A stretch of DNA of 34,424 bases. It comes from an uncultured Bacteroidota bacterium (GTDB lineage Bacteria > Bacteroidota > Bacteroidia > Bacteroidales > WCHB1-69). The position numbers and the translations under genes were made by a program. The stretch is from positions 1-34,424 of the forward strand of contig CADADB010000022.1 in NCBI GenBank assembly GCA_902786595.1. The letters run 5' to 3'. The first letter of the stretch is position 1. Each line of letters starts with the position of its first letter. Shown one piece after another: positions 513 through 28,346 of this stretch. The notes under the pieces are model-generated. The model did not search any database. It was not told the DNA's origin and saw only the letters and a program-made list of their open reading frames with translations.

Positions 513-547
513 CAACCGCAAATCGTAAACCGTAAATCGCAAACCGA
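513..547. repeat. Heptanucleotide array, AAAYCGN x5
   Basis: Five consecutive 7-base units (CAACCGC, AAATCGT, AAACCGT, AAATCGC, AAACCGA) begin 10 bases after the stop of the preceding gene. Read on the minus strand the unit is ACGRTTT. This is the same family as the array after yggS at 1425-1459, in the opposite orientation. Confidence 0.75.
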
Positions 548-651
548 AAAAACGTATTTTTGCCAACAGGAAATTCATAACCCAAAAATTCACAATGAAA
601 ACGAACATTTCCTAAAATTACAATTCGTCCGTCGCTAATCGAAAAAAAGTG

Positions 652-659
652 TACTTTTG
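652..659 (+). promoter_or_regulatory. -7 box TACTTTTG for the tRNA-Arg/yggS unit
   Basis: The box matches the Bacteroidota -7 consensus TAnnTTTG and lies 12 bases upstream of the mature tRNA. No clear -33 TTTG is visible. No other full match occurs before yggS. Confidence 0.6.
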
Positions 660-671
660 CGCTTTCAATCC

Positions 672-745
672 GGCCCCGTAGTTCAGCTGAATAGAACGTC
701 AGATTCCGGTTCTGAAAGTCGTGGGTTTGAATCCCGCCGGGGTCA
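672..745 (+). tRNA. tRNA-Arg (anticodon CCG)
   Basis: A complete cloverleaf can be folded by eye. The acceptor stem is GGCCCCG (672-678) with CGGGGTC (738-744), including one G-U pair. The D arm is GTTC/GAAC, the anticodon stem TCAGA/TCTGA with loop TTCCGGT (704-710), and the T arm GTGGG/CCCGC with a TTTGAAT loop. Positions 34-36 of the loop read CCG, which decodes CGG arginine codons. The discriminator base is A745. CCA is not encoded, so it must be added after transcription. Confidence 0.95.
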
Positions 746-759
746 CTAAATCAGTCCGT

Positions 760-1431
760 ATGAACATCGAAAAATACGACGAAATCCGGGCTTCCCTGCC
801 CGCCGGTGTGCGCCTGGTCGCCGTCTCCAAATTTAAACCGGCGGAGGACATTGCCACGCTGTACCAACACGGACAGCGTGTTTTCGGCGAAAACCATGCC
901 CAGGAGATGAAGGCCAAGCACGAAATCCTTCCCCAAGACATCGAATGGCACTTCATCGGACACCTGCAGACCAATAAAATCAAATATATCGCTCCGTATG
1001 TGTCGTTGATTCACAGTATTGATAGCTTCGATTTGCTTAAGGAGGTCAACAAACATGCGGTAAAAAACAACCGCGTGATTCCCTGTCTGCTGCAGTTCCA
1101 CATTGCGGATGAGGAGACAAAGTTCGGCTTCACCCAGGAAGAGTGCATGGCGATGCTGGATAACCCCTCTTTTGGCGAGTTGCAAAACATCAAAATCCAC
1201 GGGGTCATGGGAATGGCTACCTTCACGGACGACAAGGTTCAGGTGCGCCGCGAATTTCATCACCTTCATCAGATTTTCGAAGATTTGAAAACTCATTATT
1301 TTCCGCAAAACCCTGATTTCAAGGAAATTTCAATGGGCATGACCGAGGATTACCCCATTGCCATTGAAGAGGGCAGCACGTTGATTCGCATCGGCAGTGC
1401 TATTTTCGGACCACGGGATTATACGATTTAG
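760..1431 (+). CDS. yggS: YggS/PLPBP-family pyridoxal phosphate homeostasis protein
   Basis: This 223-residue protein has the normal length and fold signature of the PLP-binding YggS/PROSC family. These are single-domain alanine-racemase-like barrels that bind PLP and buffer vitamin B6 and amino-acid pools; they have no proven catalytic activity. The PLP lysine is K24 in AVSKFKP. Other family motifs are VFGENHAQE, WHFIGHLQTNKIKY, SIDSF, and the C-terminal SMGMTEDYPIAIEEGSTLIR followed by IGSAIFGPRDY. The start is ATG 760; a longer frame opening with GTG at 721 would lie inside the tRNA. The gene begins 14 bases after the tRNA with no promoter of its own visible, so the two are probably co-transcribed. 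Its final codons and TAG stop are already part of a 7-base repeat array. Confidence 0.93.
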   Translation: MNIEKYDEIRASLPAGVRLVAVSKFKPAEDIATLYQHGQRVFGENHAQEMKAKHEILPQDIEWHFIGHLQTNKIKYIAPYVSLIHSIDSFDLLKEVNKHAVKNNRVIPCLLQFHIADEETKFGFTQEECMAMLDNPSFGELQNIKIHGVMGMATFTDDKVQVRREFHHLHQIFEDLKTHYFPQNPDFKEISMGMTEDYPIAIEEGSTLIRIGSAIFGPRDYTI

Positions 1432-1459
1432 GATTTGCGATTTACGATTTACGAATAAC
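1425..1459. repeat. Heptanucleotide array, GATTTAC x5, overlapping the yggS stop
   Basis: Five in-register units: GATTTAG, GATTTGC, GATTTAC, GATTTAC and GAATAAC. The yggS stop codon TAG is the last three bases of unit 1. The unit equals the reverse complement of the 513-547 unit, so the two arrays face each other across the tRNA and yggS. Confidence 0.8.
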
Positions 1460-1473
1460 TAAATATACAAAAG

Positions 1474-2892
1474 ATGAAGAAGTTAATACCCTGTTTTTTT
1501 GCTATAATATTGATGATCAGTGGATTGTCAACCTATGCTAACGGTGGCGACGAGGGTGTCACCCGTGACCGGAAACCCAAAAAAGAGAAAAGCGAAGTGC
1601 GCACCGGCTGGACCTTCGGCATTTTGCCGAGTGTGGCATACGATGCGGACAAAGGTTTCCAATACGGTGTGTTGGCCAACGTTTACGATTTCGGCGACGG
1701 TTCCGCGTATCCTGACTATTTCCACTCACTCTATTTTGAGGCGGCCTACACCACCAAACGTTCGGGTTTGTTTCGTTTCGCTTACGACTCCAAATACTTG
1801 ATTCCCAATCACCATCTGAAGATTGATGTTTCCTATCTTCCTGATGCACTGTGCGATTTCTATGGCTATAACGGCTATCAGACCGTTTATAATGGCGGTT
1901 GGGCGAAGAAGAAAAGCGAGGATTACGTCTCCCGTGCCTTCTACAAGTCGCAGCGTGACCTGTTGCGCGTCGCCGCCGACATTGAAGGCAGTATCGGAGG
2001 CGGTTGGTTCTGGAATGCGGGTTTGGGTTTGCTGTGGTACAACATTGCGCCGGTGAACATTGCCATGATCAACAAGGGTAAAAAAGAGGAGAATATGCTG
2101 CCGGAAGTGGATGGTTTGTACGACAAATACGTGAAATGGAACATTTTGTCAGCGGCGGAAGCCAATGGCGGCTGGCACCCCTATCTGCGTGGCGGTATCT
2201 CTTTCGACAACCGTGACCGTCAGCAGAACACCAAAAAAGGGATGAATGCGGATTTCTTCCTGACCTATTATGCTGGTTTTGGCGAAGACAAAGAGGCCAA
2301 CAGCTTGATTTTCAATGCTAATTTCCGGCATTTCGTTCCTGTCTATAAGGACAAGATCACGTTTGCCTACCGTTTGGCCGCGCAATTGGATGTGGCTGGC
2401 GACGCCCCGTTCTATCTCAACAATTATTACAACAATTTGTTCATTCAAAGGGTGTTGTACGAAGGTCTTGGCGGCGGAAACACCTGCCGTGGCATCCTGC
2501 GTCACCGCATCTCCGCCAGAAGCTATGCTTTCGCCAATGTGGAATTCCGCTTCCAAATCTGCAAATTCGACATCGGGAAGGAACATTTCTTCATCGGACT
2601 GAACCCGTTTGTTGATATGGGATTGATTTTGCAACCCTACCGCCTCGACAAGAATACCATTTTGGACAATATCGCGAATAACGATCCGGATTTTGACCTC
2701 AACAATTTGCCGGACTACATCGTTTTCGATGAAAGCAAGAATGTTTTCCGTCCGCACTTCTCCGGCGGATTGGGTCTGAAGTTGATGATGAATGACAACT
2801 TTGTGCTTTCCGTGGATTGGGCGGTGCCGTTCGACAAACGCGATAATGACGGAATGGCCAATATTTATGTCAAAATGGGATATATGTTCTAA
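1474..2892 (+). CDS. BamA/TamA-like outer membrane beta-barrel protein without POTRA domains
   Basis: This 472-residue protein has a signal peptide (MKKLIPCFFAIILMISGLSTYA) and a short basic linker. Amphipathic strands rich in aromatic residues and glycine then run to the C-terminus, which ends with the aromatic residues of a final beta strand (YVKMGYMF). Around residues 335-345 the stretch GGGNTCRGILRHR resembles the conserved (V/T)RG loop-6 motif of the Omp85/BamA surface-antigen barrel. No room is left for POTRA repeats, so it is a barrel-only member, as is common in Bacteroidota. The role is unknown; transport or assembly of outer-membrane material is the family expectation. It sits three bases upstream of murB and is probably co-transcribed with it. 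The start follows the repeat array after yggS by 14 bases. Confidence 0.75.
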   Translation: MKKLIPCFFAIILMISGLSTYANGGDEGVTRDRKPKKEKSEVRTGWTFGILPSVAYDADKGFQYGVLANVYDFGDGSAYPDYFHSLYFEAAYTTKRSGLFRFAYDSKYLIPNHHLKIDVSYLPDALCDFYGYNGYQTVYNGGWAKKKSEDYVSRAFYKSQRDLLRVAADIEGSIGGGWFWNAGLGLLWYNIAPVNIAMINKGKKEENMLPEVDGLYDKYVKWNILSAAEANGGWHPYLRGGISFDNRDRQQNTKKGMNADFFLTYYAGFGEDKEANSLIFNANFRHFVPVYKDKITFAYRLAAQLDVAGDAPFYLNNYYNNLFIQRVLYEGLGGGNTCRGILRHRISARSYAFANVEFRFQICKFDIGKEHFFIGLNPFVDMGLILQPYRLDKNTILDNIANNDPDFDLNNLPDYIVFDESKNVFRPHFSGGLGLKLMMNDNFVLSVDWAVPFDKRDNDGMANIYVKMGYMF

Positions 2893-2895
2893 AAC

Positions 2896-3936: not shown

Positions 3937-3957
3937 GACATGGAATAATTGGATAAA

Positions 3958-9136: not shown

Positions 9137-10047
9137 TAATTCCGCCTTTTTTGACCATTGGTGACACCATCGCGCTGGCCGCGCCCGCCCGGAAAATCTC
9201 CAAAGAGGAAATTTTTCCGGCCGAGCAATGGTTGAAAAGTGTCGGTTTTAACGTTTTTTATGATGACAGACTTTTTGCCGAAGATCACCAGTTTGCGGGT
9301 AACGATGCCTTGCGGGCTGGTTATTTCCAAGATCTTTTGGACAGTGAAAGAGTAAACGCAATTTGGTGTGTAAGAGGCGGTTACGGATCTGCCCGCATCA
9401 TCGACCGCTTGGATTTCACCCGATTCCGCAAACACCCGAAATGGATCTGCGGATACAGCGACATTACCGTTTTCCATAACCACTTGCAGCATAAGCTCCA
9501 GACCGCTACATTGCATACCACTATGCCCATTAATGTTACGGAGAATAATACGCAAACAGCTGTTTGTCTGTCTTTTCTGGATGCCTTGACAGGCAAAACG
9601 CTGACGTATGAAATCGCCCCCCATTCGTTGTCGAGAACGAAACCGTTTTCAGGAATTTTAACAGGAGGGAACTTGTCGATGCTGTATTCTCTTATTGGTT
9701 CTCCGTCCGACATAGATACCACCGATAAGGTGCTGTTTATCGAGGATTTGGACGAATACCTATATCACATTGACCGAATGATGCTCAATTTGGAGCGAAG
9801 CGGCAAGCTTTCGCACGTTAAAGCATTGTTAGTCGGGCATTTGAGCGATATGCACGACAATACGGTGCCGTTTGGTAAAACGGCCGAAGAGATTGTAGCT
9901 GACCATTGTCAGAAATACGATTTTCCATTGGTTTTCAATGTGCCTGCCGGGCATCTTCCCGACAACCGCGCTTTCCGCATGGGTTGTCAAATAGAGGGTT
10001 TTATTAAAGACAATAAATTTATAATCAATAGTTTGAATCATGCTTAG
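9133..10047 (+). CDS. LD-carboxypeptidase, peptidase family S66
   Basis: S66 enzymes (LdcA, MccF) are cytoplasmic serine peptidases with a Ser-Glu-His triad. LdcA removes the terminal D-Ala from muropeptide tetrapeptides during peptidoglycan recycling. The triad can be placed: S109 in ICGYSDIT, E204 in LFIEDLDEY, and H274 in VPAGHLPDN. Other motifs are the N-terminal GDTIALAAPA, AIWCVRGGYGSARI and GGNLSMLYSLIG. The 304-residue length is normal. Recycling is the likely role; an MccF-like detoxifying role cannot be excluded by sequence reading. It overlaps the SDR stop by four bases and the acyltransferase start by eight. Confidence 0.92.
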   Translation: MIIPPFLTIGDTIALAAPARKISKEEIFPAEQWLKSVGFNVFYDDRLFAEDHQFAGNDALRAGYFQDLLDSERVNAIWCVRGGYGSARIIDRLDFTRFRKHPKWICGYSDITVFHNHLQHKLQTATLHTTMPINVTENNTQTAVCLSFLDALTGKTLTYEIAPHSLSRTKPFSGILTGGNLSMLYSLIGSPSDIDTTDKVLFIEDLDEYLYHIDRMMLNLERSGKLSHVKALLVGHLSDMHDNTVPFGKTAEEIVADHCQKYDFPLVFNVPAGHLPDNRAFRMGCQIEGFIKDNKFIINSLNHA

Positions 10048-10624
10048 CACTTTTCTGTTCAAATATATTTATCGAGTAAAACCGATTCCGTATCCGAATC
10101 CCGAAGGCACCATTCCCAAGAGCGTGCTGATGATGGCGCCGCACACCTCCATCATGGACTTCGTCATCGGTTTGGCGGCCATGCAGTATTATGATTTGCA
10201 CGCCAACACCATCATCAAAAAGGAGTTTTTCTTCTTCCCTTTGAATCTGTTACTGAAGAAGTTAGGGGGTATTCCGGTAGATCGGAAACATGCACGGAAT
10301 TTTGTGGAGTATGCCGCCAATGTCATTAAGGAAAGGGAACGTATCACACTGATTATCTGTCCGGAAGGCACACGCAAAAGAGTGGAGAGATGGAAACGGG
10401 GATTCTATCAAATCGCGATGGAGGCGGGCGTGCCCATCAGTTTGGGGTACATCGACTATAAAACCAGAACATGCGGCATCATGTCCATTTTCTATCCCAC
10501 GGGTGATTATGAAAAGGACATGCAGGAAATTTTAGCGCAATACTACGGCCTTGAGGGCTACCGCAAGGGAAGATTCAACTTGGAAGACAAGCCGCACGCC
10601 CATCCGGAATGGTACAAATTATAA
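10040..10624 (+). CDS. PlsC-like 1-acylglycerol-3-phosphate acyltransferase family protein
   Basis: Acyltransferases of this family transfer an acyl chain to lysophosphatidate or related acceptors at the cytoplasmic membrane. The 194-residue protein shows block I HTSIMD (H35-x4-D40), the block II-like GGIPVDRK, and block III CPEGTRKR with E109. The C-terminal part is short, as in small Bacteroidota PlsC relatives. The acceptor could be lysophosphatidate or another lipid such as an ornithine or glycine lipid. Eight bases overlap the peptidase gene upstream. Its end overlaps the end of the convergent aminotransferase gene by six bases, leaving no room for a terminator between them. Confidence 0.87.
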   Translation: MLSTFLFKYIYRVKPIPYPNPEGTIPKSVLMMAPHTSIMDFVIGLAAMQYYDLHANTIIKKEFFFFPLNLLLKKLGGIPVDRKHARNFVEYAANVIKERERITLIICPEGTRKRVERWKRGFYQIAMEAGVPISLGYIDYKTRTCGIMSIFYPTGDYEKDMQEILAQYYGLEGYRKGRFNLEDKPHAHPEWYKL

Positions 10625-11836
10625 CCCTGAATTTTCAGGAACAGATTCCTTCACAACACGGATGACCTCATTTACTTGTTCGTCCGTCAGGTCAAAATAG
10701 ACAGGCAAACTGATTTCACAAGCGTAATTCTTATAGGTGTTAGGATAATCTTCAATGCGATAACCTAATGTCTTATAAGCTGTTAGAAGAGGCAATGGGA
10801 TAAAATGCACATTGGTGGCCACTTCTTTGGATGCTATTTTCATGATGATGTCATTGCGTTGTTGTTCCGTGACATTATTCAAAAACAGGGTGAAAACGTG
10901 ATAGGACGATCTTTTTTCTGCCGTTTCAAACACAGGCATGCGGAATCTTTTGTCGTCTTTAAATGCTTGGTAGTAAGCGTCAAAAATCTTTTTTCTGCGG
11001 GGTAGGATAAGCTGGTCGTAGCGGGCGAGCTCCACCAGACCCATAGCAGCGGCGATGTCGGTCATGTTGCATTTGTGGCCGATGGAGCAGACATCATAGC
11101 GCCAGCTTCCTGCTTGTGTTTTGGTGAAGGCGTCTTTGGTTTGGCCGTGCAAAGAGTAAATGCAAAAGTCATGATAGAGTTCGTCGGGATTGAAGGGGGC
11201 GGGGAGATTGAAGCAGATGGCGCCGCCTTCTGCCGTGGTCAGGTTTTTGACAGCATGGAAGGAGAAAACGGTAATATCGGTCAACGCGCCGGTCTTTTTC
11301 CCTTTATATTGCGCACCGAGAGAGTGGGCGGCGTCAGAGAGAATCAAGATACGGCCCAGTTTCTCTTGGATGGGATTGCTCGGTTGGAATTTCTGTTTTA
11401 TGGAAGGTTGTTGGATAAAATCCAGGAGATGATCATAATTGCAGGGGAGACCGACGATATCCACAGGAATGATGGCTTTAGTGCGGGGGGTGATGGCATC
11501 GCGAAGATGTTTCACATCCATGAGCAGTTCGTCATTCACATCGACCATGACGGGTTTTGCGCCGCAGTGCAGAACCACTGCGGCCGTGGCGGTGTAGGTG
11601 TAGGCGGGTATAATCACCTCGTCGCCTTGGCCTATACCGAACCAATGCAGAACCAGTTCCAGACCGGCGGAAGCGGAATTGACGCACACCACGCGTTGAA
11701 TACCACAATATTCCGCAAGTTTCTGCTCAAAGAGCTTTGTCCTTGGACCTGTGGTGATCCATCCGGAGCGCAGCGTTGCGACAACCTCATCGATAATCGC
11801 GTCGTCAATATGAGGGGGAGAAAATGGTATTTTCAT
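10619..11836 (-). CDS. DegT/DnrJ/EryC1/StrS-family sugar aminotransferase
   Basis: These are PLP-dependent fold-type I aminotransferases that aminate nucleotide-linked keto sugars for surface polysaccharides. Motifs include SGWITTGPRT near residue 24, VNSASAGLEL, DEVIIPAYTYTAT, SDAAHSLGA (D168, H171), and the Schiff-base lysine K197 in FSFHAVKNLT followed by AEGGAI. A ~20-residue insertion at about 142-162 precedes the SDAAH motif. It starts one base after the porQ stop on the same strand, so it is the second gene of a porQ operon. The T9SS factor PorR and WbpE of Porphyromonas gingivalis belong to this family and help build the A-LPS that anchors T9SS cargo; assigning that role here is inference. 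Confidence 0.88.
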   Translation of the reverse strand: MKIPFSPPHIDDAIIDEVVATLRSGWITTGPRTKLFEQKLAEYCGIQRVVCVNSASAGLELVLHWFGIGQGDEVIIPAYTYTATAAVVLHCGAKPVMVDVNDELLMDVKHLRDAITPRTKAIIPVDIVGLPCNYDHLLDFIQQPSIKQKFQPSNPIQEKLGRILILSDAAHSLGAQYKGKKTGALTDITVFSFHAVKNLTTAEGGAICFNLPAPFNPDELYHDFCIYSLHGQTKDAFTKTQAGSWRYDVCSIGHKCNMTDIAAAMGLVELARYDQLILPRRKKIFDAYYQAFKDDKRFRMPVFETAEKRSSYHVFTLFLNNVTEQQRNDIIMKIASKEVATNVHFIPLPLLTAYKTLGYRIEDYPNTYKNYACEISLPVYFDLTDEQVNEVIRVVKESVPENSGL

Positions 11837-15977: not shown

Positions 15978-16063
15978 CGAAATTTTCAATATCGCCCGAT
16001 GTTAAATTTTTTTTCCGAAGAAAGAGTATGTATGACTATAACAATAACTATGACTATGACTGG

Positions 16064-16179
16064 CTGTTAGCTATTAGCTATTAGCTGGTCTGTTTTGTAT
16101 TCAAAAGCTAAAAGCTAATAGCCAATAGCCAATAGCCAATAGCTAATAGCCAATAGCCAAAAGCCAAAAGCTAATAGCC
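16064..16179. repeat. Inverted heptanucleotide array between the helicase end and guaB
   Basis: The right block, 16103-16179, is eleven unbroken 7-base units of consensus AAWAGCY. The left block, 16064-16084, is three units (CTGTTAG, CTATTAG, CTATTAG) in the opposite orientation. The 18-base spacer contains TGTTTTGTATT. The two blocks could fold into an imperfect hairpin. The helicase stop TAG (minus strand) lies inside the right block. Left of this, 16031-16062 shows a looser 6-base pattern (GACTAT/AACAAT). Confidence 0.88.
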
Positions 16180-19100
16180 GATATACAGGATTTCCGTTCG
16201 CACGTCCTGATACCCCATTTCCTGCATACACTCCTGATATTCTTTTAGTTGCGCTTCGTATTGAATACGATGTTCCTGACCGGTTTTATAGTCGATGATC
16301 ATCACGTGGTCGGGTTTGATGACCACACGGTCAGGCCGCCTCTCCTGGCCGTTTTTCGTGAGGATGGTGACCTCGTTTAACACCTGGTCGCCATCGTTGA
16401 GGTAGAAATACGGACGTAAACGGGAATCCTGTTCCGTACGTTCGAATAATCGGTGCAGCCGCGAGCGAATTTCTTCCGGCAGACCGTTTGTCATTTCATT
16501 GCGTTCCTCTTCTGTAGCAGGAAAGAGTGTTAATTTTTGCAAAAAATCGTGTATTTGCGTTCCAATGTCTTGTGATTCGGTGTTTGTTGCTGATAGATTG
16601 ATGTTGATGGAATCATTGTCGCAGAAGGTCAGCTTTGAGCAACACACTTGGAGATTTGAATTATTCGGTTGATTATCAGACGTTTTGGTTGGTTTTTGCC
16701 ATTGAAAATCACCGTAATAGTAGATGTTGTTTTGATTGTCGCAAATAGAGTTTTCAGAACTTTTTACAAATTTCTGTAACGCGTTTTTGATGTTCGTTTT
16801 TTCTTCTCCTTTCTTTTTGTTGTCTTTATTGTCGGGAAACTCGGCCAAAAGGTAGAGCATATCGCGGGCGCGGGTGAAATCAACATACCAAAGGTTGAGG
16901 TTGTCAAGATTTCTCTTATCCTCCTCGGTCTCATAATCATCCTGAAAATCAGAATATTTCATATTTTTTTCATGTTTCACATAGCAGCTTTCCTGGCTTC
17001 GCGCATCATTCACCCAGTAATAGGATTCACGGGAATTGGATGCGCTGCAATGGGTGATCACCACGGGAAATTCCATCCCTTTGGAAGCGTGGATGGTCAT
17101 CAGTTGCACGGCGTCAGACTTTCCGGACAGAGAGAGCCGCGGTATGGTTTCGCTGTAACGGTTTCGGTCGTCCCACCATGTTAAAAAAGCTGAAACGGAG
17201 GCCGTCTGAGATTGTTCGTATTCGTGTACCAGATCCAAAAAATCGGCAATGAAAGGATCTTCGCTGTTGTCAAACTGGTAGTATCGAATCATCTCCTTCA
17301 CGGCGAGAACGAACGGGTTCTTTGCCCAATCCGCCAGATGATGTGAAAAGTCCTGATTTGGAAACAGTTCATCCATAACAGAAAGAAATTCACCTTCTGT
17401 ATTTTTATGCAATGCGGTATGGAAATCCTGATGTTGTTTGGTGCAAAGATAATGTAAAATGGTGGTCTGCACCAATTTGTCTTTCGGATTAATCATCAAT
17501 CGCAATGTGCTGATTAACAAGTTAATACTTAGATTATCACAGAGTTGTAATGATTCGGTGGTGATAACAGGGACATCCGCCTGCAACAAACATTGCGCAA
17601 ACGCTTTGCATTTCGCCCTTCCGCTGAGCAGCACCGCCATATCACCGTAGGCATACCCGCGCTGTTTCGCATCCTTGACGGCATACAGCAGTTCCGCCTC
17701 TTCCGGTTTCAACTTCTTATATATATTCTCAATAAAATCCTCAGAGCATTCCGGCCAAACTTGATGTATGTCTTTGTAATCCTGCTTGTTATAACCAAAA
17801 ACTTGCACCAATCCGCCAGTTTTCAAGGGATTGACGAACTGCTCCACATCTCTGTAATAGTCGGTTTTGTCCAACGTTTCCGCGTAAAATTGGAAGAATC
17901 GGTTGTTGAACTCTATCACCGACGATTGTGAGCGGTAGTTGGTTTTCAAAGGGATAGAGCGGTAATCCGACTCGCCTTTCAACAGGGTGAAAATATCCTT
18001 TTCCGCAGGAGTGTTCTTCAAACGTTCATAATCCGACAGTCGGTAAAAAAGATCAACATCGCCGTTGCGGAAACGGTAGATGGACTGTTTCACATCGCCA
18101 AAAAGGATGACATTCCCATTTTCACTTAACGCTTCCACAATCAGTGGTTTTAAATCCTGCCACTGCATCAGGGAGGTGTCCTGAAACTCATCAATAAAGA
18201 AATGCCGGAAGAAGCTCAGCTTTTCAAAAAGCAGATCCCCGCCGGAATCGGAAATGGCATCGTTCAGCAGCGGGTTGCTTTCCGACAGAAAGAAGGAATC
18301 GGTTTGTTCCTTGATGGTTTCGATATGCTGCTGCAAGGCGGTCAACACCAAAAGGCGGTTGGCGTTTTTGGCCAGAACATAGTTGGTGAAGAAATTCTTC
18401 GCATATCCTATCACAATTTTTTGGATTTGCGAGAAAATATCTTTCACTCGTTCGGAATAATCTGCCCTCAAACTCTCTTTTCTCTCTTTCTCGTCCTTTC
18501 CACCCTTTTTCGGTGCGGAAAAGACCTTTTTTTCGTCCATTTCCTGCAAACACTTGCTCTCTGAAAATCCTTTTTCCAAGTTGAACGGATCATCCGCGAT
18601 GCGCGCAATATGCTTGTCCCAATTATACGTCCCGTTGGGCATCAAATCCTCTTTTTCGGCTTCTTTAAAAATGGCAAGAGCTTGTTTTACAAGATCTTCC
18701 AACTCTTTTTTGCATTGTTCCTGAATGAGCCGGCAATTCTTCTTCCATTGATCCACAACCTTTTCCAACTCCTCCATTTCAGGAATGTTTTTGATGTGGG
18801 GATGGCTTTTCTCCGTATCGTAGTAAAGGACGCCGAGTCCCTGCATCAGGAAACGGTTGATATTGGCGCTTCCCTTGTCCTCCAGCTCTTGCTCCAGCTC
18901 CTTCACCACCACACTGAGTTGTTGGTTATTGTTGGTTAAATCGCAGATATACTGTTCGATAGCCATGCGGAAGAAATCCGTCAGGTGGATTTGCACGGCA
19001 TAGTTCATACTGAGGTTGAGGTAGAGGGCGGAGGAACGGATCACGCGCTGGATGAAGCTGTCGATAGTGGTGATGCTGAAGCAGGCGTAATCGTATAAAA

Positions 19101-19467
19101 TATTGTAGAGCAGAGCTTTAGAAGTCTTTTGGACAAACGTGAAACACTCTTCCGGGGAAAGCATGTTGTCTTCACCGAAAATCTTTTGGCAAAGGTTGTT
19201 GAAGTCATTGGCGTTCAGGTCTGACACGCTTTGGGCGAAAGCGAGCCGGTTCAGCTGCCTCACCACGCGCTCTTTCATTTCGGAGCCGGCATTGTTGGTG
19301 AACGTTATCGCCAAAATCTGCTTGTAACCCGTGCAGGACCGACAAGAATAGTTCTGCTTGTCGCGCAGGAATGCGGGCACGTGATTTTTGAGACAGGTGG
19401 CGATATAGTCGAACACCAGGTTGTAGGTTTTCCCGGAGCCGGCGGAGGCGGAATAGACCGTGAGCAT
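16171..19467 (-). CDS. AddA/RecB-like UvrD-family helicase-nuclease
   Basis: The 1098-residue protein combines a superfamily 1 helicase and a RecB-type nuclease, as in AddA subunits that process double-strand breaks. Walker A is SASAGSGKT (residues 6-14), and ITFTNNAGSEMKERV is motif Ia-like. Walker B is FFIDEFQDTSLMQW at about 420-430, and LFGDVKQSIYRFRNGD is motif III. A later motif is MTIHASKGMEFPVVI. The C-terminal nuclease carries RRPDRVVI and IIDYKTGQEH (about 1042-1063), the D...DYK pattern of PD-(D/E)XK enzymes. An AddB partner is not in the window. The final Gly-Tyr-stop is formed by the 7-base array. purE lies upstream on the same strand, separated by two repeat clusters. Confidence 0.92.
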   Translation of the reverse strand: MLTVYSASAGSGKTYNLVFDYIATCLKNHVPAFLRDKQNYSCRSCTGYKQILAITFTNNAGSEMKERVVRQLNRLAFAQSVSDLNANDFNNLCQKIFGEDNMLSPEECFTFVQKTSKALLYNILYDYACFSITTIDSFIQRVIRSSALYLNLSMNYAVQIHLTDFFRMAIEQYICDLTNNNQQLSVVVKELEQELEDKGSANINRFLMQGLGVLYYDTEKSHPHIKNIPEMEELEKVVDQWKKNCRLIQEQCKKELEDLVKQALAIFKEAEKEDLMPNGTYNWDKHIARIADDPFNLEKGFSESKCLQEMDEKKVFSAPKKGGKDEKERKESLRADYSERVKDIFSQIQKIVIGYAKNFFTNYVLAKNANRLLVLTALQQHIETIKEQTDSFFLSESNPLLNDAISDSGGDLLFEKLSFFRHFFIDEFQDTSLMQWQDLKPLIVEALSENGNVILFGDVKQSIYRFRNGDVDLFYRLSDYERLKNTPAEKDIFTLLKGESDYRSIPLKTNYRSQSSVIEFNNRFFQFYAETLDKTDYYRDVEQFVNPLKTGGLVQVFGYNKQDYKDIHQVWPECSEDFIENIYKKLKPEEAELLYAVKDAKQRGYAYGDMAVLLSGRAKCKAFAQCLLQADVPVITTESLQLCDNLSINLLISTLRLMINPKDKLVQTTILHYLCTKQHQDFHTALHKNTEGEFLSVMDELFPNQDFSHHLADWAKNPFVLAVKEMIRYYQFDNSEDPFIADFLDLVHEYEQSQTASVSAFLTWWDDRNRYSETIPRLSLSGKSDAVQLMTIHASKGMEFPVVITHCSASNSRESYYWVNDARSQESCYVKHEKNMKYSDFQDDYETEEDKRNLDNLNLWYVDFTRARDMLYLLAEFPDNKDNKKKGEEKTNIKNALQKFVKSSENSICDNQNNIYYYGDFQWQKPTKTSDNQPNNSNLQVCCSKLTFCDNDSININLSATNTESQDIGTQIHDFLQKLTLFPATEEERNEMTNGLPEEIRSRLHRLFERTEQDSRLRPYFYLNDGDQVLNEVTILTKNGQERRPDRVVIKPDHVMIIDYKTGQEHRIQYEAQLKEYQECMQEMGYQDVRTEILYIGY

Positions 19468-19503
19468 GGTTAGGTTAAAGGTTGGAAGGTTAAAAGGTTA
19501 AGG
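19468..19503. repeat. Degenerate GGTTAAA tandem repeat at the helicase start
   Basis: Units GGTTA, GGTTAAA, GGTTGGAA, GGTTAAAA and GGTTAAGG run directly from the helicase ATG (minus strand, 19467). The period varies between 5 and 8 bases, so this array is more decayed than its neighbours. Its unit resembles the array at 20088-20158. Confidence 0.6.
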
Positions 19504-19506: not shown

Positions 19507-19541
19507 TATAGCCAAAAGCCAAAAGCCAAAAGCTAATAGCT
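19507..19541. repeat. Heptanucleotide array AAWAGCY x5, overlapping the purE stop
   Basis: Units are TATAGCC, AAAAGCC, AAAAGCC, AAAAGCT and AATAGCT. This is the same family and orientation as 16103-16179. The purE stop TAG (minus strand, 19540-19542) begins inside the array. Confidence 0.8.
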
Positions 19542-20046
19542 AATTTGTTTTGAATTTGTAGGAGATTTCGGACAGGTCGGCGTTCGCCTTTACGATTTTC
19601 TGCTTAAGGTTCTGTTTGAATGCCAGCACTTTATCCAGCATTTCGGGATTGTTGACGCTGAGCATCTGCAGGGCGAGGATGGCGGCGTTTTGTGCGCCGT
19701 TGATGGCCACGGTGGCCACAGGGATTCCCGGAGGCATCTGCAGCATGGCAAGGGCGGCGTCCATACCCTCGAGCGACGACTTGATGGGTACGCCGATGAC
19801 GGGCAGCGGGGTCATGGCGGCAATCACACCCGGCAGATGGGCGGCCATGCCCGCGCCGGCGATAATCACCTTGATGCCGCGCTGATGGGCGTTTTTGGCG
19901 TATTCGGCGACCTCATCGGGCGTGCGGTGCGCCGACAAAGCCAACATTTCAAACGGAATTTCCTGACTGTCAAAAAATTTGCAGGCGGCCTCCATCACCG
20001 GAAGGTCGGAGGTGCTGCCCATGATGATACTGACTAATGGTTGCAT
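19540..20046 (-). CDS. purE: N5-carboxyaminoimidazole ribonucleotide mutase
   Basis: Class I PurE converts N5-CAIR to CAIR in de novo purine synthesis. The 168-residue length is normal. The opening [17 protein letters not shown] holds the phosphate and active-site Ser-Asp. The catalytic histidine is in LSAHRTPDE. The loop [16 protein letters not shown] and then [19 protein letters not shown] are family signatures. The partner PurK is not visible nearby. The gene has its own -7 box. The helicase gene follows after 72 bases that are nearly all repeat. Confidence 0.97.
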
Positions 20047-20069: not shown

Positions 20070-20077
20070 CAAAAGTA
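20070..20077 (-). promoter_or_regulatory. -7 box TACTTTTG for purE
   Basis: The minus-strand match to TAnnTTTG ends 23 bases upstream of the purE ATG. The left arm of the 20088-20158 repeat occupies the place where a -33 element would be expected. Confidence 0.55.
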
Positions 20078-20087
20078 ATAAAAATAA

Positions 20088-20158
20088 GTTTAGAGTTTAA
20101 GGTTTATGGTTTAAGGATAACGACATTGACAACCAATCCTTTAACCCTTAACCCTTAA
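20088..20158. repeat. Inverted heptanucleotide arrays between purE and the M16 gene
   Basis: The left arm, 20088-20122, is GTTTAGA, GTTTAAG, GTTTATG, GTTTAAG and GATAACG. The right arm, 20138-20158, is CCTTTAA, CCCTTAA and CCCTTAA. The right arm is the reverse complement of the left pattern, and GTTTAAGG pairs perfectly with CCTTAAAC at the outer ends. The arrays lie between two divergent promoters rather than at a gene end. Confidence 0.8.
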
Positions 20159-20170: not shown

Positions 20171-20178
20171 TATCTTTG
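20171..20178 (+). promoter_or_regulatory. -7 box TATCTTTG for the M16 protease gene
   Basis: Exact TAnnTTTG match 97 bases upstream of the ATG, giving an unusually long leader of about 90 bases. The right arm of the repeat lies where the -33 element would be. Confidence 0.6.
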
Positions 20179-20275: not shown

Positions 20276-23110
20276 ATGAAAAAAGTATTTTTGTTTTTGA
20301 TGGCCTTGGCGTGTGCGTTGACCGTTTTCGCGCAGCAGCAGAAAGGCGACCTGAATCTGAACGATCCCATCAAAGCGGATCCTAATGTGACCATTGGCAA
20401 GTTGGACAACGGCTTGACCTACTACATTCGTAAAAACTCTTATCCGAAGGACCGCGTGGAGTTCCGTCTCGCCGTGAACGCCGGCTCCAACCAGGAGAAC
20501 GACAACCAACAAGGTTTGGCGCACTTCACCGAGCACATGGCCTTCAACGGTATTGAAGGTTTCCCGAGCAACAGCGTGGTTGACCACCTGCGCAGCAAGG
20601 GTGTGGTGTTCGGCGCCGACCTCAACGCCTACACTAGCTTCGACGAGACAGTCTATATGATCCCCATGCCGCTCGACGATCCCAACAACATCGACCTCGG
20701 CCTCAAGATCCTCCGTGGCTGGGCCGCCGGTCTGCTTTATGACAACAAGGAGATTGATGAAGAGCGCGGTGTCATCATCGAGGAATACCGCCTCGGTCTC
20801 GGTGCCGACGACCGTATGCGCAAGGAGTACTGGCCTATCCTCATGAAGGACTCCCGTTATGCCGATCGTATGCCCATCGGTAAACTTGACATTCTGCAAA
20901 CTTTTGATTACCAAGTGATCAAGGATTTCTATCACGATTGGTACCGTCCTGATTTGCAGGCCGTTATCGTGGTTGGTGACATTGATGTGAATACGGTGGA
21001 GCAGAAAATCAAGACGATGTTCGGCAACATCCCCGCCAAACAGAACCCTCGCAAGAAAGAGATTTACGGCATTGGTGCCAATAAGGAGCCGCTTGTGGCT
21101 GTTTGTACCGATAAGGAAGCAACGGGTAGCCAAGTGGAGCTCATCCGCAAGCATAAACACGCTCCGATGAAGACCATCGGTGATTTCCGCCAACAGCTCT
21201 GCATTGATCTCTACAACGCTATGTTTGACGCCCGTCTCGAGGAGATGACCCAAGATCCGAAATGTCCTTTCATCGGTGCCGGTGCCGGATATGGTGACTT
21301 CATTGGCAACACGGATGCGTACGCTTCCATGGCCATGGCCAAGGAGAATCGCATTCCTGAAGCACTGCAAGTGCTCATGCAAGAAGACTACCGCGTGTTG
21401 AAATACGGTTTCCTGCAGACTGAACTCGACCGCGCCAAAGAGGAATTGTTGGAAAGATACGACAAGGCAGCCAAGGAGGTCGATAAGACTGAATCCGCTC
21501 GTTTCGCCAGCCAATACATCAACAATTTCCTGCGTCAAGACCCCATCCCGGGTGCAAAACGTGAGAACACCTACGCCAAGAAGCTGATCGAAGGCATCAC
21601 TTTGGATGAAGTCAACGCCCTTGCAAAGAATTGGGTTACGGAAGACAATATGGTGGCCATCGTCACCGCTCCCGAAAAAGACGGTGTGAAAGTTCCGTCC
21701 AAGGAGGAAATTCTTTCCATCCTGAAAGACAAATCGTTAGCAAACGTTAAACCATACGTTGACACTTACAAGGATCAGGAAATTTTGGAAAAGGGATCCC
21801 TGAAGCCCGGCAAAATCACCTCGGTGGAAAAAATCGAGGCCGTGGATGCCGAAAAGTGGACACTCTCCAACGGTATCACTGTCTATCTGAAGAAAACCGA
21901 CTATAAGAACGATGAAATCCTCTTCAGTGCCAGCAGTAAGGGCGGTAAATCGCTTTATGGTGTAAAGGATCTTGCTTCCGCCGACTTCGCCGCCGAAATC
22001 ATCGACCGTGGCGGTATCGCTGATATTGACTACAATTCTTTGATGAAAAAGATGAAAGGTAAAAACGTGGGTGTTTCTCCTAACATCAATCTCTTAAGCG
22101 AAGGTTTTTCTGGCTCATCTTCTCCGAAAGACTTGGAGTTCTTCTTCCAGTATCTCAATGCTTTCTTCACCAACCCGCGTATCGACCCGAACGCTTTCGA
22201 ATTGGTGATGCAGGAGACGAAAGAGCAACTCAAGATGATCACCGCACAGCCGATGTACAAGTATTTAGGCAAATTCCTGGAAGCAGCCTATAATTACGAT
22301 CCTTACATGAAACAGATGTTCTCCTACGATGACGAATATCTGAGCCAAGCGAATTTCGACCGCGCCGTTGAAATTTACAAAGAGCGTTTCTCCAATCCCG
22401 CCGATTTCAACTTCTTCTTCGTGGGCAACTACGACGAAAAGGAAATGAAAGAATTCGTTGAACTCTATCTCGGTTCTATGAAGACCGATGTGAAGAAGAA
22501 AGAGAACTACAACCTCAGCGTCTTGAAACCGCGTCCTGACAAGGCCACCACGCAAACCGTTTATGCCGGTACTGAGGAACAAGGTTGGATGGGCATGTAT
22601 ATCACCAACCCGATTGACTGGAATTACCGCAACTCCATCATCGCCGACATGATCGGTGAGGCTTTGGACATCCAATTTGTGCGCATCGTGCGTGAAAAGA
22701 TGGGCGATGTCTATTCCCCGATGGTGCAGATGGGCGCCAGCAAACTCCCTCATCCTGAGATGACCTTGATGATTCTCCTGGGTTGCGATCCTGTGAAAAC
22801 CGACAAGCTCGCCGATGCCAGCTTGAAGATTCTCAACGACTTCAAAGCCAAAGGCCCGGATAAGAAAACGATGGAACTGGTGAAGAAGCAGATGCTCAGC
22901 ACCCGCGCCAAGAACATCCAAACCAACCGCTTCTGGCTCAGCTTCATCAGCGGAAAGGTCACCCAAGACGATCCTATTGTCAATCCTTCCGAATACGATA
23001 ATATTGTCAATTCGGTCACTAAGAAAGAAATGGTCGAGTTCATGAAGAAATACTTCAAACCCGAAATCTACACCCGCGCTGACATGCATCCGACCACGAT
23101 GCAACATTAG
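20276..23110 (+). CDS. Secreted M16-family zinc metallopeptidase (pitrilysin-like)
   Basis: The 944-residue protein has a signal peptide ([20 protein letters not shown]) and so acts in the periplasm or at the cell surface. The inverted zinc motif HxxEH is HFTEH at H83, E86 and H87. The third ligand is expected in [14 protein letters not shown], about 75 residues later. The length fits two M16 halves, each with an active-like and a structural domain. The second half starts at about residue 520 ([17 protein letters not shown]) and lacks an HxxEH motif, as usual. Bacteroidota encode several such peptidases; substrates are unknown. GC content and regular codon use suggest a well-expressed native gene. 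An intrinsic terminator follows. Confidence 0.93.
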
Positions 23111-23165: not shown

Positions 23166-23166
23166 G

Positions 23167-25099: not shown

Positions 25100-25158
25100 G
25101 AAAAACCGAGCAACACATTCAGACTCAAAACAATAACCAGAAACACTCTCTTGACCAT
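24976..25158 (-). pseudogene. 5' remnant of a porin-like outer-membrane barrel gene
   Basis: On the minus strand ATG 25158 starts a clear signal peptide (MVKRVFLVIVLSLNVLLGFS, then Q). It is followed by NFGGGLFFGNTFSGMSADN and IPGYWKAGITTGLF. This is the usual opening of PorT-like/outer-membrane beta-barrel proteins of Bacteroidota (GxxxGxNxSxxxGD, then GYxKxGxxxG). After about 60 residues the frame enters the antisense of the ATPase remnant, so the barrel is lost. The -7 box lies only 7 bases before the ATG, which would give a nearly leaderless message. The left boundary is the estimated junction. Confidence 0.6.
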
Positions 25159-25165
25159 AGCGCGG

Positions 25166-25173
25166 CAAAAATA
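25166..25173 (-). promoter_or_regulatory. -7 box TATTTTTG for the porin remnant
   Basis: Minus-strand TAnnTTTG match ending 7 bases before the ATG at 25158. Confidence 0.5.
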
Positions 25174-25340
25174 CAAAAACCAAAAGGACTGGGAGAGTTG
25201 ACGAACAAAAAAATCAACTTTTGCGCGAATTCTTGCCAAAATTGCCCATTCAAACTGGGTCATTATAATGATTCAGCACAAACGAACAATGTTTTGTTGC
25301 AGCTTCTTGTGTTTACAATATACTGATTATCAATTCGTTA

Positions 25341-25353
25341 CCCCCCCCCCCCC
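25341..25353. repeat. Run of 13 C
   Basis: An uninterrupted 13-base C homopolymer lies 47 bases upstream of the -7 box of the next gene. Such tracts are prone to slippage and are also a common sequencing weak point. The rest of 25174-25400 shows no gene I can support. Confidence 0.9.
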
Positions 25354-25400
25354 GAAAAAGAAAAAAATTGCGAAATCAACTGATTTATAAAAAGAATATG

Positions 25401-25408
25401 TATTTTTG
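25401..25408 (+). promoter_or_regulatory. -7 box TATTTTTG for the FGE-like gene
   Basis: Exact TAnnTTTG match 68 bases before the ATG at 25477; no clear -33 TTTG. The poly-C tract lies further upstream. Confidence 0.6.
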
Positions 25409-25476
25409 CAACACGCAAGGAGTTGTGAGAATTCCTATGCGCAAGTATCATAAGTCGTTTAAAAAATGAGAAAGAC

Positions 25477-26034
25477 ATGAAAAAAACATTGTTTACCCTG
25501 TTGATAGCCACACTATGTTGCGTGGCAACAGTTTCGGCGCAGAAGAACGTTCCGAATAATTACCAGAAAAAATATACAAAGCACTTGCTGCCCTGGATTG
25601 AAAGCCAATATATTGACCAAACGCAGATTAGCAATTTAGATTGGATGGAATACCAGTACTGGTTAGAGCATGTTTTTGGGGTGGATTCCAAAGAATACAA
25701 GGCCTCCGTGCCAGACATGAAGGTTCTTCGACAGCAATTGCCAAAACAAATCGCCGAAGTGTATGCCAACAGTCCTTACTACAAGAATGACCCCGTTTTG
25801 GGTATATCCAGAGAGCAGGCCATTGCGTACTGCAAGTGGCGAACCGACCGTGTGGCAGAACAGATGCTTGTGGATATGAAATTCATCCAATACAGCCCGA
25901 ACCAGACAAGGAACGATTATTTCACGTTGGACAACTACAAGGCGGTCGAAGGGCTCCAGTTCCTTCGTTTCAGCCTGCCGACAGACCAACACGAAACGCG
26001 CTACGGTTTCCGTTGTACGGCAGTGTGGCGGTGA
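25477..26034 (+). CDS. Secreted, shortened FGE/SUMF1-like domain protein
   Basis: The 185-residue protein has a signal peptide (MKKTLFTLLIATLCCVATVSAQ). The mature part resembles the formylglycine-generating-enzyme/sulfatase-modifying (SUMF1) fold used in Bacteroidota by GldK/GldJ-like proteins. Matches are ISNLDWMEYQYWL near the N-terminus, SPYYKNDPVLGISREQAIAY followed by CKWRTDRVAE, and the C-terminal RYGFRCTAVWR. The usual ~100-residue middle, with the catalytic cysteine and GNVWEW regions, is absent. It is therefore a minimal, probably non-catalytic version. GldK is part of the T9SS ring, so a surface or gliding-related role is possible but unproven. It is followed by a structured intergenic element and a T9SS cargo gene. 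Confidence 0.65.
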   Translation: MKKTLFTLLIATLCCVATVSAQKNVPNNYQKKYTKHLLPWIESQYIDQTQISNLDWMEYQYWLEHVFGVDSKEYKASVPDMKVLRQQLPKQIAEVYANSPYYKNDPVLGISREQAIAYCKWRTDRVAEQMLVDMKFIQYSPNQTRNDYFTLDNYKAVEGLQFLRFSLPTDQHETRYGFRCTAVWR

Positions 26035-26054
26035 TTGTTAATTCACAATTCATA
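26034..26054. repeat. Three heptamers after the FGE-like gene (ATTGTTA, ATTCACA, ATTCATA)
   Basis: The array begins at the last base of the TGA stop. A looser version of the same motif (ATTCATA ... ATTCACA) occurs at about 573-594. Confidence 0.55.
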
Positions 26055-26063
26055 ATGACAATG

Positions 26064-26124
26064 GTACACTGGCGAGGAGGAGAATCCCTCTCGTCTTCAT
26101 GCACGCACCATCCCGCCAGTGCAC
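26064..26124 (-). other. Stem-loop element in the 26035-26274 gap
   Basis: Arms GTACACTGGCGAG and CCGCCAGTGCAC can form a stem of about 13 bp. A smaller GAGA/TCTC hairpin sits in the loop. Two positions that mismatch (A-C) on the plus strand become G-U pairs on the minus strand, hinting at a minus-strand RNA. The rest of the gap to 26274 is AT-rich with no gene I can support; no TAnnTTTG box was found before 26275. Confidence 0.45.
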
Positions 26125-26274
26125 GACGTAGAACGTTCCGAAAATCAACCACTTACGAAAAAAAATCAAAAAAAATTTCATTTTCGATGTAACGAAATCG
26201 CCCTTTCGTGCGACTAAGCGAATATAAGGGAATAATATCATCTGATTGTTAATATCAAATCAAATTATAACAAT

Positions 26275-28314
26275 ATGAAAAACAGCTTTTTGTCCATTCG
26301 AAAGAATATATTTAAACACCTGGTCCCCGTTGTTTTCATCCTTCTGGCCACCCTCTCCGCCTCCGCTCAGGGCGAGTGGAAGTGGGCGAACTATTGGACA
26401 GGGGGCGAGGAACTTGGCAGCCACGAAACGAATCGTGTTGTGCGGACTGCATTTGATGATAACGGAAACATATACGTTTTTGGTAGTTTCGGCGGAAGTG
26501 CGACTCTTTATGCCCAAAATGGCACCTCGCACTTTTCCGATAATACGGCGATTGTGGCAAATGGCAGTCCGGGAACCGTATTGGCTAAATTTGATTCCCT
26601 TGGAAATCTGCTTTGGCATAGATTTATCAAAAGTTTAAACAGCAGTTGTATGCCATACGATATGTTTGTGCGTGACAACAGAATCACAATTGCTGGAGAA
26701 TATGCTTTCCAATTAAACAGTGTAACGCAGTTGTGGTTTATTGACACTTTGATAGACTCACAATGTGCACTCTCCTACCCGTCGGGAACGATTCATCCCC
26801 CATATACGTTTGGCAACTACAGCTATTTTGTCACCTTTGATTTGGATGGTAACAAACTGGATAATCATTTTGTACACACTATAGCTCGTGAACGTATAGG
26901 GGGAGAATATTTGTTGGATATGCCACTAAGCAGACGAATATTAGGAGCACATCCTGTATGCGTGGATAGCCAAGGCAATACATTTATTGCATTAAGCACT
27001 TATTACGCGGGACCCGATACCCTTCCTTACACTATCGTAATTGATGGGGATTCAACAAAAACCTATCAGATTTTTTTACCAGGGAATTGCACTGATGATA
27101 GTCAACAAATATATAATATGATGATTTGCAAATTTACGCCCAATTGGGAACTGGCTTGGATGAAATTGATAGTGGATCATACGGAAGGGCTTTCTCCCAA
27201 TTTACCATATGACTCGTTACATCCTTATTTCGTTCCTTATATGGGTGGAATGAGCATTGATGAAGAAGACAATTTATATGTTTCGGGTTATTTATCGCAA
27301 ATGGATATGATGGATGCGTACAATCAATATCCAATGCGAATATACTGGGACAACACGCATTTTGCAGAAGTCGCAGATCAAAGCTTAGCAAAACTATTAC
27401 CATTCCTTATAAAATACTCTGCGGACGGGTCAATAGTTTGGTCAAATCAGGCATTTGTAAAGAATGGGCCAAGCGCAAATTTTTACGAAACGATTGATTG
27501 GTCTGATAATTATGTTGACAATCAAGGGGTTTATTTGTTGGGAAGAGCTGAAAATATTAGCGGTAGTAATCCTATATTCTATTTTGACAATGAAAATAAT
27601 TCTCTACAAATACTATCAGGTAATCATAGCAGCTTTTATGTCAAATTCGATAAATATAATGGTACTTTCATGAAGCTTGGACAACCGACAGGCTCACATA
27701 CTTCTGCGCTACTTGGAGCGACTCCCACTGTCATTAACAACCACCTATTGGGACAATTTGCTTACGATTTCAACTCGGATTCTTTTCTTGCCTATTTCAA
27801 TATAGATGGTTCTTTTGTGTCGGCGGATACCGTATCAACTATACACGATCCGTATTCACTGCCACAGAAAACAATAGCCAATAATCATGGGGGGATTTTA
27901 TGCGACAGAATTGCTTCTCAAAATCTTTCTTTCGGTCATAATCTTTCAGTTAACTTTACCAACCACAATAACAGCCATGCTGTATTCGCGTACAAGTACG
28001 ACCCGTCCATCTTGGAGCCCTTCGTCCCCGACGATTCGGTGGGCATCGAGGACTACCTCGGCAGGCGTGAGAGTGACATCTACCTCTACCCCAACCCCAC
28101 GTCGGGCGAGGCCGTGGTGTGCGGCTATATGTACGGCTACCGCAGCATCGAGCTGCTCGACCTCCAGGGCCGCAAACTGGCCACCCTCCTGGATTCGCCC
28201 CATGGCACGTCCCTGCCCGAAATCGACCTCTCGCCCTATCCCTCCGGCACGTACCTCGTGAAGATCAACTTCGAGCGAGGGGTGAGCGTGGTGAGGAAGG
28301 CGGTGAGGAGGTAG
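26275..28314 (+). CDS. T9SS type A cargo protein with beta-propeller-like repeats
   Basis: The 679-residue protein has a signal peptide (VPVVFILLATLSASAQ), then GEWKWANYWTGGEELGSH. A passenger follows with phrases typical of SBBP/propeller-like repeats (TAFDDNGNIYVFGSFGG, LAKFDSLGNLLWHRFIKS, CVDSQGNTFIALS, SIDEEDNLYVSGYL, IKYSADGSIVW). The last ~75 residues are a type A sorting domain (YLYPNPTSGEAVV, SIELLDLQGRKLATLL, YPSGTYLVKINFERG). It is therefore exported by the T9SS and displayed on or released from the surface; the ligand is unknown. Composition is mosaic: two sampled 60-base lines near the ends are 63% and 68% GC, while one in the middle (27541-27600) is 28%. Confidence 0.88.
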   Translation: MKNSFLSIRKNIFKHLVPVVFILLATLSASAQGEWKWANYWTGGEELGSHETNRVVRTAFDDNGNIYVFGSFGGSATLYAQNGTSHFSDNTAIVANGSPGTVLAKFDSLGNLLWHRFIKSLNSSCMPYDMFVRDNRITIAGEYAFQLNSVTQLWFIDTLIDSQCALSYPSGTIHPPYTFGNYSYFVTFDLDGNKLDNHFVHTIARERIGGEYLLDMPLSRRILGAHPVCVDSQGNTFIALSTYYAGPDTLPYTIVIDGDSTKTYQIFLPGNCTDDSQQIYNMMICKFTPNWELAWMKLIVDHTEGLSPNLPYDSLHPYFVPYMGGMSIDEEDNLYVSGYLSQMDMMDAYNQYPMRIYWDNTHFAEVADQSLAKLLPFLIKYSADGSIVWSNQAFVKNGPSANFYETIDWSDNYVDNQGVYLLGRAENISGSNPIFYFDNENNSLQILSGNHSSFYVKFDKYNGTFMKLGQPTGSHTSALLGATPTVINNHLLGQFAYDFNSDSFLAYFNIDGSFVSADTVSTIHDPYSLPQKTIANNHGGILCDRIASQNLSFGHNLSVNFTNHNNSHAVFAYKYDPSILEPFVPDDSVGIEDYLGRRESDIYLYPNPTSGEAVVCGYMYGYRSIELLDLQGRKLATLLDSPHGTSLPEIDLSPYPSGTYLVKINFERGVSVVRKAVRR

Positions 28315-28346
28315 CAGTTAGTAGTTATCAGTTAGTAGTTATCAGT
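28312..28346. repeat. Heptanucleotide array TAGTAGT/TATCAGT x5, starting at a stop codon
   Basis: Units TAGCAGT, TAGTAGT, TATCAGT, TAGTAGT and TATCAGT start exactly at the TAG stop of the T9SS cargo gene. Confidence 0.82.

Follow-up and report, generated by a model that had tools for sequence, protein, structure and literature searches.

What sets the period, the sequence and the direction of the short tandem arrays that lie between the genes of a rumen-type Bacteroidales? Heptamer repeats are long known from bacteria, with no agreement on how they arise or what they do. The question was raised by contig C22, a stretch of 34,424 bases (the window) from a metagenome-assembled genome (MAG) of 2,840,241 bases in 40 contigs. 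For its purE gene, the closest named counterparts lie in Bacteroidales MAGs, of which several come from rumen studies, at 90–93 % protein identity. An earlier note on the window had claimed eight intergenic sites with a constant period of seven bases and drifting sequence, and had proposed a mechanism that copies in 7-base steps. Here we report that the arrays usually run outward, with the G-richer strand reading away from the adjoining gene, across many unit sequences and at stop and start borders alike, which looks like a trace of DNA-end copying, beyond polymerase slippage or one regulatory site alone.

Period 7 dominates the intergenic arrays

Arrays were called with Tandem Repeats Finder (score of at least 30) and a separate period scan, with cut-off scores of at least 8 for sites of the window and at least 14 for genome counts. 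Genes were called by a simple longest open reading frame (ORF) rule, and intergenic DNA so defined amounts to 95 kb. In the 1,224,769 bases read for these counts (43 % of the genome, window included), period 7 gave 187 intergenic and 21 'coding' arrays, against 0, 0, 8, 20, 1, 1 and 0 intergenic arrays at periods 4, 5, 6, 8, 9, 10 and 11; periods 14 and 21 are harmonics of period 7. The earlier note would have been refuted by a period 7 no commoner than periods 5, 6, 8 and 9, which is clearly not the case, and dinucleotide shuffles of the gaps gave 0.0–0.1 period-7 arrays at the same score. At a score of at least 11, 7,758 of 92,750 gap bases lie inside period-7 arrays. The same period was commonest, with 42 arrays, in 864 kb of sequence from 80 purE loci in other Bacteroidales and their relatives; period 8 had 17, and periods 4–6 and 9–11 had 0–7. 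An excess of tandem unit 7 is a mark of bacterial intergenic heptanucleotide repeats of the simple sequence repeat (SSR) or short tandemly repeated repetitive (STRR) kind, and the arrays show it.

Among the other periods, 20 of the 21 period-8 arrays are of CGATGA type and follow the sense strand of the adjacent gene, and 6 of the 8 period-6 arrays are of TATRAC type.

Arrays point away from genes

Orientation was taken from the G-richer strand of each array, whose 5' to 3' direction makes the array '>' or '<'. The left halves of gaps hold 92 '>' and 34 '<' arrays and the right halves 96 '<' and 30 '>' (Fisher p 4e-15), a trend that is alike in tandem, convergent and divergent gaps. Where several arrays share a gap (48 gaps), the order is '><' in 35, '><<' in 3, '>><' in 1, '>>' in 6 and '<<' in 3, and '<>' in none. 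An ORF caller that engulfs G-rich arrays might create such a polarity as an artefact; this is countered by a test on neighbouring arrays that makes no use of genes. At distances below 200 bp it gave 35 '><', 6 '>>', 6 '<<' and 0 '<>' in the same genome, and 51, 9, 9 and 0 in five sets (this genome, the congeners G009 and G010, the purE loci and Anabaena plasmids). A single '<>' pair appeared at 200–400 bp, and at 400–1500 bp, mostly across genes, our genome had 20 '<>', 8 '><', 14 '>>' and 13 '<<'. The short-range '><' together with the long-range '<>' mean that arrays tend to enclose a gene as <gene> and a gap as > <.

The border-nearest arrays of three genomes tell the same from the side of the genes: 163 are outward and 46 inward at stops, 97 outward and 30 inward at starts. 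Where a TANNTTTG box, called by what we take to be the Bacteroidota −7 box consensus, lies between array and gene on the start side, 15 are outward and 2 inward. Outward arrays exceed inward ones in 13 of 14 heptamer patterns, with p < 0.05 in 7 (NGGTTAT 59:10, GGCTNTT 99:32, GRTTTRC 20:6, GACKTRR 46:13, GAATGNT 13:1, GAATTAA 14:1, GGCAAWA 9:1), and a 6-mer family runs outward with its C-richer strand (17:1).

The polarity was replicated significantly in G009 and G010, and 9 of 10 arrays are outward in G043. In G080, G307, G178 and G129, which bear TAACTGA repeats, arrays were too few for the test. Cyanobacterial plasmids agree thinly: a small sample of 748 kb from seven strains, dominated by one of them, had 16 outward, 3 inward and 1 neutral array, and 13 of the 16 came from Anabaena cylindrica PCC 7122. 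No arrays were present in the plasmid stretches of Nostoc UHCC 0926 and Dolichospermum, none was counted in the Aulosira stretch, and a blastn search of plasmids with a heptamer query gave no matches.

Sites in the window

Arrays were recovered at seven of the eight sites claimed earlier; the eighth, 26034–26054, does not rise above background in either method. The −7 box look-alike at 555–562 is read from sequence only.

514–550, minus strand: GRTTTRC-family array (AAAYCGN on the plus strand), weak, scan score 9
555–562, plus strand: TATTTTTG, look-alike of a Bacteroidota-type −7 box
672–746: tRNA-Arg
1417–1454, plus strand: GRTTTRC-family array (GATTTAC), outward, overlapping the end of ORF 721–1431
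16031–16061, strand not assigned: 6-mer TATGAC array (Tandem Repeats Finder)
16063–16086, plus strand: RGCTNTT-family array, left arm of a '><' pair (Tandem Repeats Finder and scan)
16102–16183, minus strand: RGCTNTT-family array (CAATAGC/CAAAAGC on the plus strand), right arm (Tandem Repeats Finder and scan)
19472–19501, plus strand: decayed AGGTTAAA array, left arm of a '><' pair by its G-strand (Tandem Repeats Finder: period 8, 3.9 copies)
19510–19544, minus strand: RGCTNTT-family array, right arm, overlapping the stop of purE (19540–20046, minus strand)
20070–20077, minus strand: TACTTTTG, −7 box look-alike between array and purE
20087–20116, plus strand: GGKTTAR-family array (GTTTAAG), upstream of purE and past the box there, left arm of a '><' pair
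20141–20158, minus strand: GGKTTAR-family array (TTAACCC on the plus strand), right arm
20171–20178, plus strand: TATCTTTG, −7 box look-alike of the M16 peptidase gene (at 20276)
26034–26054, minus strand: ATTCAYA stretch of the earlier note, absent from both array scans
28312–28347, plus strand: GYAGTTA/TCAGTTA-family array (reverse complement of the TAACTGA type), outward, starting in the stop codon of ORF 26275–28314

The window therefore holds three inverted pairs (16063–16086/16102–16183, 19472–19501/19510–19544 and 20087–20116/20141–20158). The array at 514–550 is inward relative to the stop at 502, yet lies directly before the box at 555–562. The decayed array, 19468–19503 in the earlier note, is the exception to period 7 that the note had named. 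The genes adjoining the arrays are ordinary and encode Omp85-superfamily and AsmA-family proteins, a UvrD-type helicase with a PD-(D/E)XK domain, PurE, an M16 peptidase and GMP synthase. Some 13 consecutive C stand at 25300–25320, in the gap before 25477.

A limited set of families and one defined element

The 208 arrays fall into 65 exact unit classes, the top two with 20 and 15 arrays, and these were grouped by eye into about 14 heptamer patterns, for example NGGTTAT, RGCTNTT, GRTTTRC and GACKTRR; some arrays fit none. The units thus recur as limited families and, contrary to the earlier claim, do not drift freely, and part of the supposed variety is one family read on opposite strands (AAAYCGN and GATTTAC; GTTTAAG and CCYTTAA). 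TAGTAGT/TATCAGT is likewise the reverse complement of TAACTAC/TAACTGA-type units. A query with the 16.1-kb arrays matched in 18 of 30 relatives, namely all 18 genus members (our genome included) and none of 12 outside the genus; the query also contains 47 coding bases and the upstream stretch of the gene, the source of several top matches.

NGGTTAT is a defined element, mostly of four units with conserved ends, (T)AATGGTTAT...GGTTATTGAAGC. In 53 copies of at least three units from three genomes, the two positions in front have A in 94 and 92 % of cases, and the five positions behind read TGAAG (94, 100, 96, 74 and 89 %). Exactly four units occur in 40 of 70 copies with at least two; T comes first in 38 of these 40, and the remaining N positions are variable. 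The four-unit pattern (at most 2 mismatches) had 82 matches in our genome against 0 for the reversed control, and at least one match in 21 of 40 genus members, our genome included. Other families have no comparable fixed ends or length.

Stop codons and differences between species

Many arrays reach into the gene they point away from. Among the 163 arrays that point outward on the stop side, 88 start ahead of the ORF end and another 34 within the next 3 bases, and TAA, TAG and TGA are all found running into repeats. In the window, the array at 16102–16183 provides the final codons and the stop of the helicase gene (16171–19467, minus strand). This protein ends in ...LYIGY* in the window and in the locus L151, and in ...LYIGS* in L150, and in all three the array makes up the closing codons together with the stop; it ends in ...LYVE* in L152, which has another family, and in ...LYID* in the congener locus L154, which has no array there. 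The stretch downstream of purE differs among the window and four relatives: GGCTTTT and AACCTTT arrays together, a TTAAGG pair, a gap of 11 bases that is free of arrays and, in two cases, arrays of CCTAA type.

Comparison of 117 orthologous gaps with the sister species G010 gave arrays in both species in 25, in our genome only in 11, in G010 only in 2 and in neither in 79. Some orthologous gaps swap the family and keep the layout, as at C2:154812, where one species has TTTAAGG-type units in both arms and the other has GGCTTTT-type units; some other arrays are identical. Indels are a multiple of 7 in 16 of 71 cases within arrays, against 16 of 255 elsewhere in gaps. Copy number thus varies in unit steps between relatives, as in repeats of the SSR/STRR kind. 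These indels and the dominance of period 7 partly support the proposed 7-base-step mechanism; steps alone leave the polarity and the '><' pairing unexplained. Substitutions in arrays aligned in both species (0.106) are not below those in the rest of the gaps (0.088), which speaks against strong purifying selection on the arrays as a whole.

Candidate agents

No agent was found among RVT_1 reverse transcriptases, Ku and RAYT transposases, nor did we find a single mobile element that accounts for all arrays. RVT_1 is patchy in the genus (9 of 40 members). The genomes G005 and G012 (95 and 94 % complete) matched the array query and had no RVT_1 match, although divergent reverse transcriptases could escape such a search. 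The sole RVT_1 match of our genome fits PADLOC models of retron or related reverse transcriptases, and on these grounds a reverse transcriptase was rejected as maker of the arrays. This retron- or defence-type gene (L201 1321–2724, G000:C3) adjoins a WYL-domain gene. Ku was absent from 20 of 20 genus members, with Bacillus subtilis as a positive control; given this and the RVT_1 counts, neither Ku end-joining nor an RVT_1 enzyme is needed. A search for XisH, prompted by MacGregor's comparison, gave no match and was uninformative, as 14 control genomes were equally without one.

Of 20 genus members, 19 have a Y1_Tnp (RAYT-type) transposase. One of the three RAYT genes of our genome (C1:270036–270509, minus strand) was inspected: its flanks carry CTACCGAGCT... 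palindromes of their own, with no period-7 arrays within about 2.5 kb, and RAYT was therefore rejected as the agent of the heptamer arrays. The palindromes, CTACCGAGCT...CCCCTA..GGGG, are many around this gene (L112 about 9500–11100; G000:C1 269500–271100) and are also dispersed through the gaps of the genome, in the manner of a REPtron and its REP. Another inverted repeat, GTAGAGACG...CGTCTCTAC, is likewise dispersed over many gaps, e.g. C1:105051, C2:156998 and C3:55209.

Comparison with known repeats

Eukaryotic telomere repeats are short, and their G-richer strand runs 5' to 3' away from gene-bearing DNA. The arrays share this direction, and '><' resembles fused ends; they differ in being internal and in having many unit sequences, and no telomerase-like enzyme was identified. 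REP/BIME palindromes with RAYT transposases are short, lie dispersed between genes and often come as inverted pairs. The heptamer arrays are similar in dispersal and pairing, but REP repeats flank a RAYT gene, and at the copy inspected, one of three, it is the separate REP-like palindrome and not the heptamer sequence that does so. Cyanobacterial STRR heptanucleotides and long simple sequence repeats are alike in unit 7, intergenic position and heptamers as the commonest class; the accounts consulted report no test of polarity or family structure.

TAACTGA direct repeats are described for Beggiatoaceae, Cyanobacteria and five Bacteroidetes (PMC4679880), so that the earlier statement of no named equivalent in Bacteroidota does not stand. 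They too are intergenic heptamer arrays; 147 of 170 sets in BOGUAY are directed at a start codon, which is the outward rule from the start side, and Cyanothece strains differ by 7-nt indels in them (PMC4679880). The Bacteroidetes cases described there are few and mostly of one family, and two-sided polarity is not stated. Among 296 Bacteroidota genomes searched, three-unit TAACTGA arrays (at most 1 mismatch) matched in 17 and the reversed control in 5; our genome had 0 matches, with related mixed TAACTGA/TAACTAC units at 28312–28347 of the window. G-rich heptamers, GGGAATC in Xanthomonas and GGGGA(C/T)T in Nostoc PCC 7120, lie closer to the 5' neighbouring ORF (28 vs 160 nt on average), and GGGAATC has mostly four units and 70 (Xcc) or 75 (Xac) convergent pairs (PMC4692102). 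These repeats are likewise intergenic with the same polarity, but as single G-quadruplex-forming families, one per organism and in another phylum; here there are many families, several with one G per unit. In the open-licence literature searched we found no statement of polarity across many families at once; only PMC4692102 reports the polarity, with a single family in each organism.

Origin of the arrays

Our preferred, still tentative reading is that the arrays may well be scars of DNA synthesis that started at 3' ends at gene borders. A DNA break or stalled fork in an intergenic gap would leave 3' ends near a stop codon, a start codon or a promoter; each end would pair by a few bases of microhomology with an array elsewhere in the genome and copy this distant array outward, in trans, and the two extended ends would then be joined. 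Once present, arrays would lengthen and shorten in 7-base steps by slippage. Since copying would carry the polarity of the donor, families on either side of a gap would point outward from their gene ('><'), and since it would act in trans, different families could meet in one gap, gaps could swap families, families could recur, and the stop codon of the recipient might fall in register with the repeat. Polarity at both gap ends, for any gene direction and beyond promoter-like boxes, is the trace that 3'-end extension from two gene-side ends would be expected to leave. Breaks, microhomology priming, copying in trans and a reason for preferring 7 are what we infer from these patterns.

Several observations weigh against synthesis from 3' ends. 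No break, priming event or donor was observed, and no clean before/after pair was found. Inward arrays make up 78 of 353 border-nearest arrays in three genomes; GTTYMAR (outward:inward 7:12 at stops, 16:2 at starts) and the 8-mer family (20:2 and 2:8) keep to the sense strand more than to the border rule. The nine purE loci nearest to the window's species had 10 outward and 7 inward arrays, which is not significant, and both arrays at RAYT loci of congeners are inward. Near-identical units stand in both arms of 10 of 45 '><' pairs, against 3.4 expected (200 shuffles, maximum 9), which hints at foldback or hairpin selection and suggests, as well, foldback or joint copying of pairs. The fixed NGGTTAT element with its two conserved ends resembles an element or site more than a random copy. 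Published data on 24 sets of Microcystis are mixed, with 6 forward and 8 reverse (PMC4679880), and Nostoc 7120 has few pairs.

For NGGTTAT, a mobile element or a binding site is a serious alternative to copying. That all arrays are mobile elements of MITE or REP kind (miniature inverted-repeat or repetitive extragenic palindromic elements) with a heptamer-array body, inserted beside stop codons and upstream of starts, seems unlikely to us: the conserved ends, the contrast with the reversed control and the patchy distribution of NGGTTAT favour it, as does the frequent RAYT-type transposase, but other families have no fixed ends or length, the inspected RAYT gene keeps its own palindromes, a large number of enzymes would be required for the many families of one genome, and no target duplication was noticed, a systematic search not having been made. 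We are about as doubtful that selection on function, with arrays kept as 5'/3' untranslated region (UTR), hairpin, quadruplex or protein-binding elements whose function sets the orientation, explains the whole. Two of the three window pairs fold better as RNA than shuffles (z −7.9 for 16063/16102 and about −3 for 20087/20141), same-unit arms are in excess, NGGTTAT has a preferred length and ends, and two families follow the sense strand. Arms usually differ, however, and the third window pair, between purE and the helicase gene, has no fold (19472/19510, z −0.6), so that we rejected hairpin selection as the general cause; no terminator-like site, with self-complementary arms and a T run after them, was called in the window arrays of 15.9–20.4 kb. 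The polarity, moreover, persists beyond promoter-like boxes, and array divergence is not lower than that of the rest of the gap. G-tracts of at least two in four units occur only in GG-bearing families such as NGGTTAT. GACKTRR, GRTTTRC and GAATTAA share the polarity despite having no such tracts; as families with a single G in the unit follow it too, it does not in general stem from quadruplexes.

Mrazek reportedly described heptamers in 2007 as the commonest class of bacterial long-unit repeats and raised the idea of a polymerase footprint. The polymerase might, perhaps owing to its footprint, simply slip by 7 nt, independently in each gap, with selection keeping coding DNA clean. We consider local slippage on its own rather improbable: it accords with the dominance of period 7, the 7-base length changes and the lack of constraint in array substitutions, but it predicts neither the polarity at gene borders nor the '><' excess, and it does not account for the same families at many loci, the conserved ends of NGGTTAT or the family swaps at orthologous gaps. 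A slimmer chance still belongs to telomere-style end healing, in which broken gene-border ends would be extended outward in 7-base steps on a family-specific strand and then fused, by a dedicated polymerase activity shared by Bacteroidota, Cyanobacteria and Gammaproteobacteria; if this were true, the chromosome would be a row of gene blocks, each with a cap at either end (<gene>).

A polarity rule valid for unrelated units and for borders of either kind strongly constrains any account of bacterial heptamer repeats. It speaks against quadruplexes, or any one binding motif, as the common cause; processes at DNA ends are what it points to, and the count of '><' against '<>' neighbours is a simple statistic that can be used on any genome.

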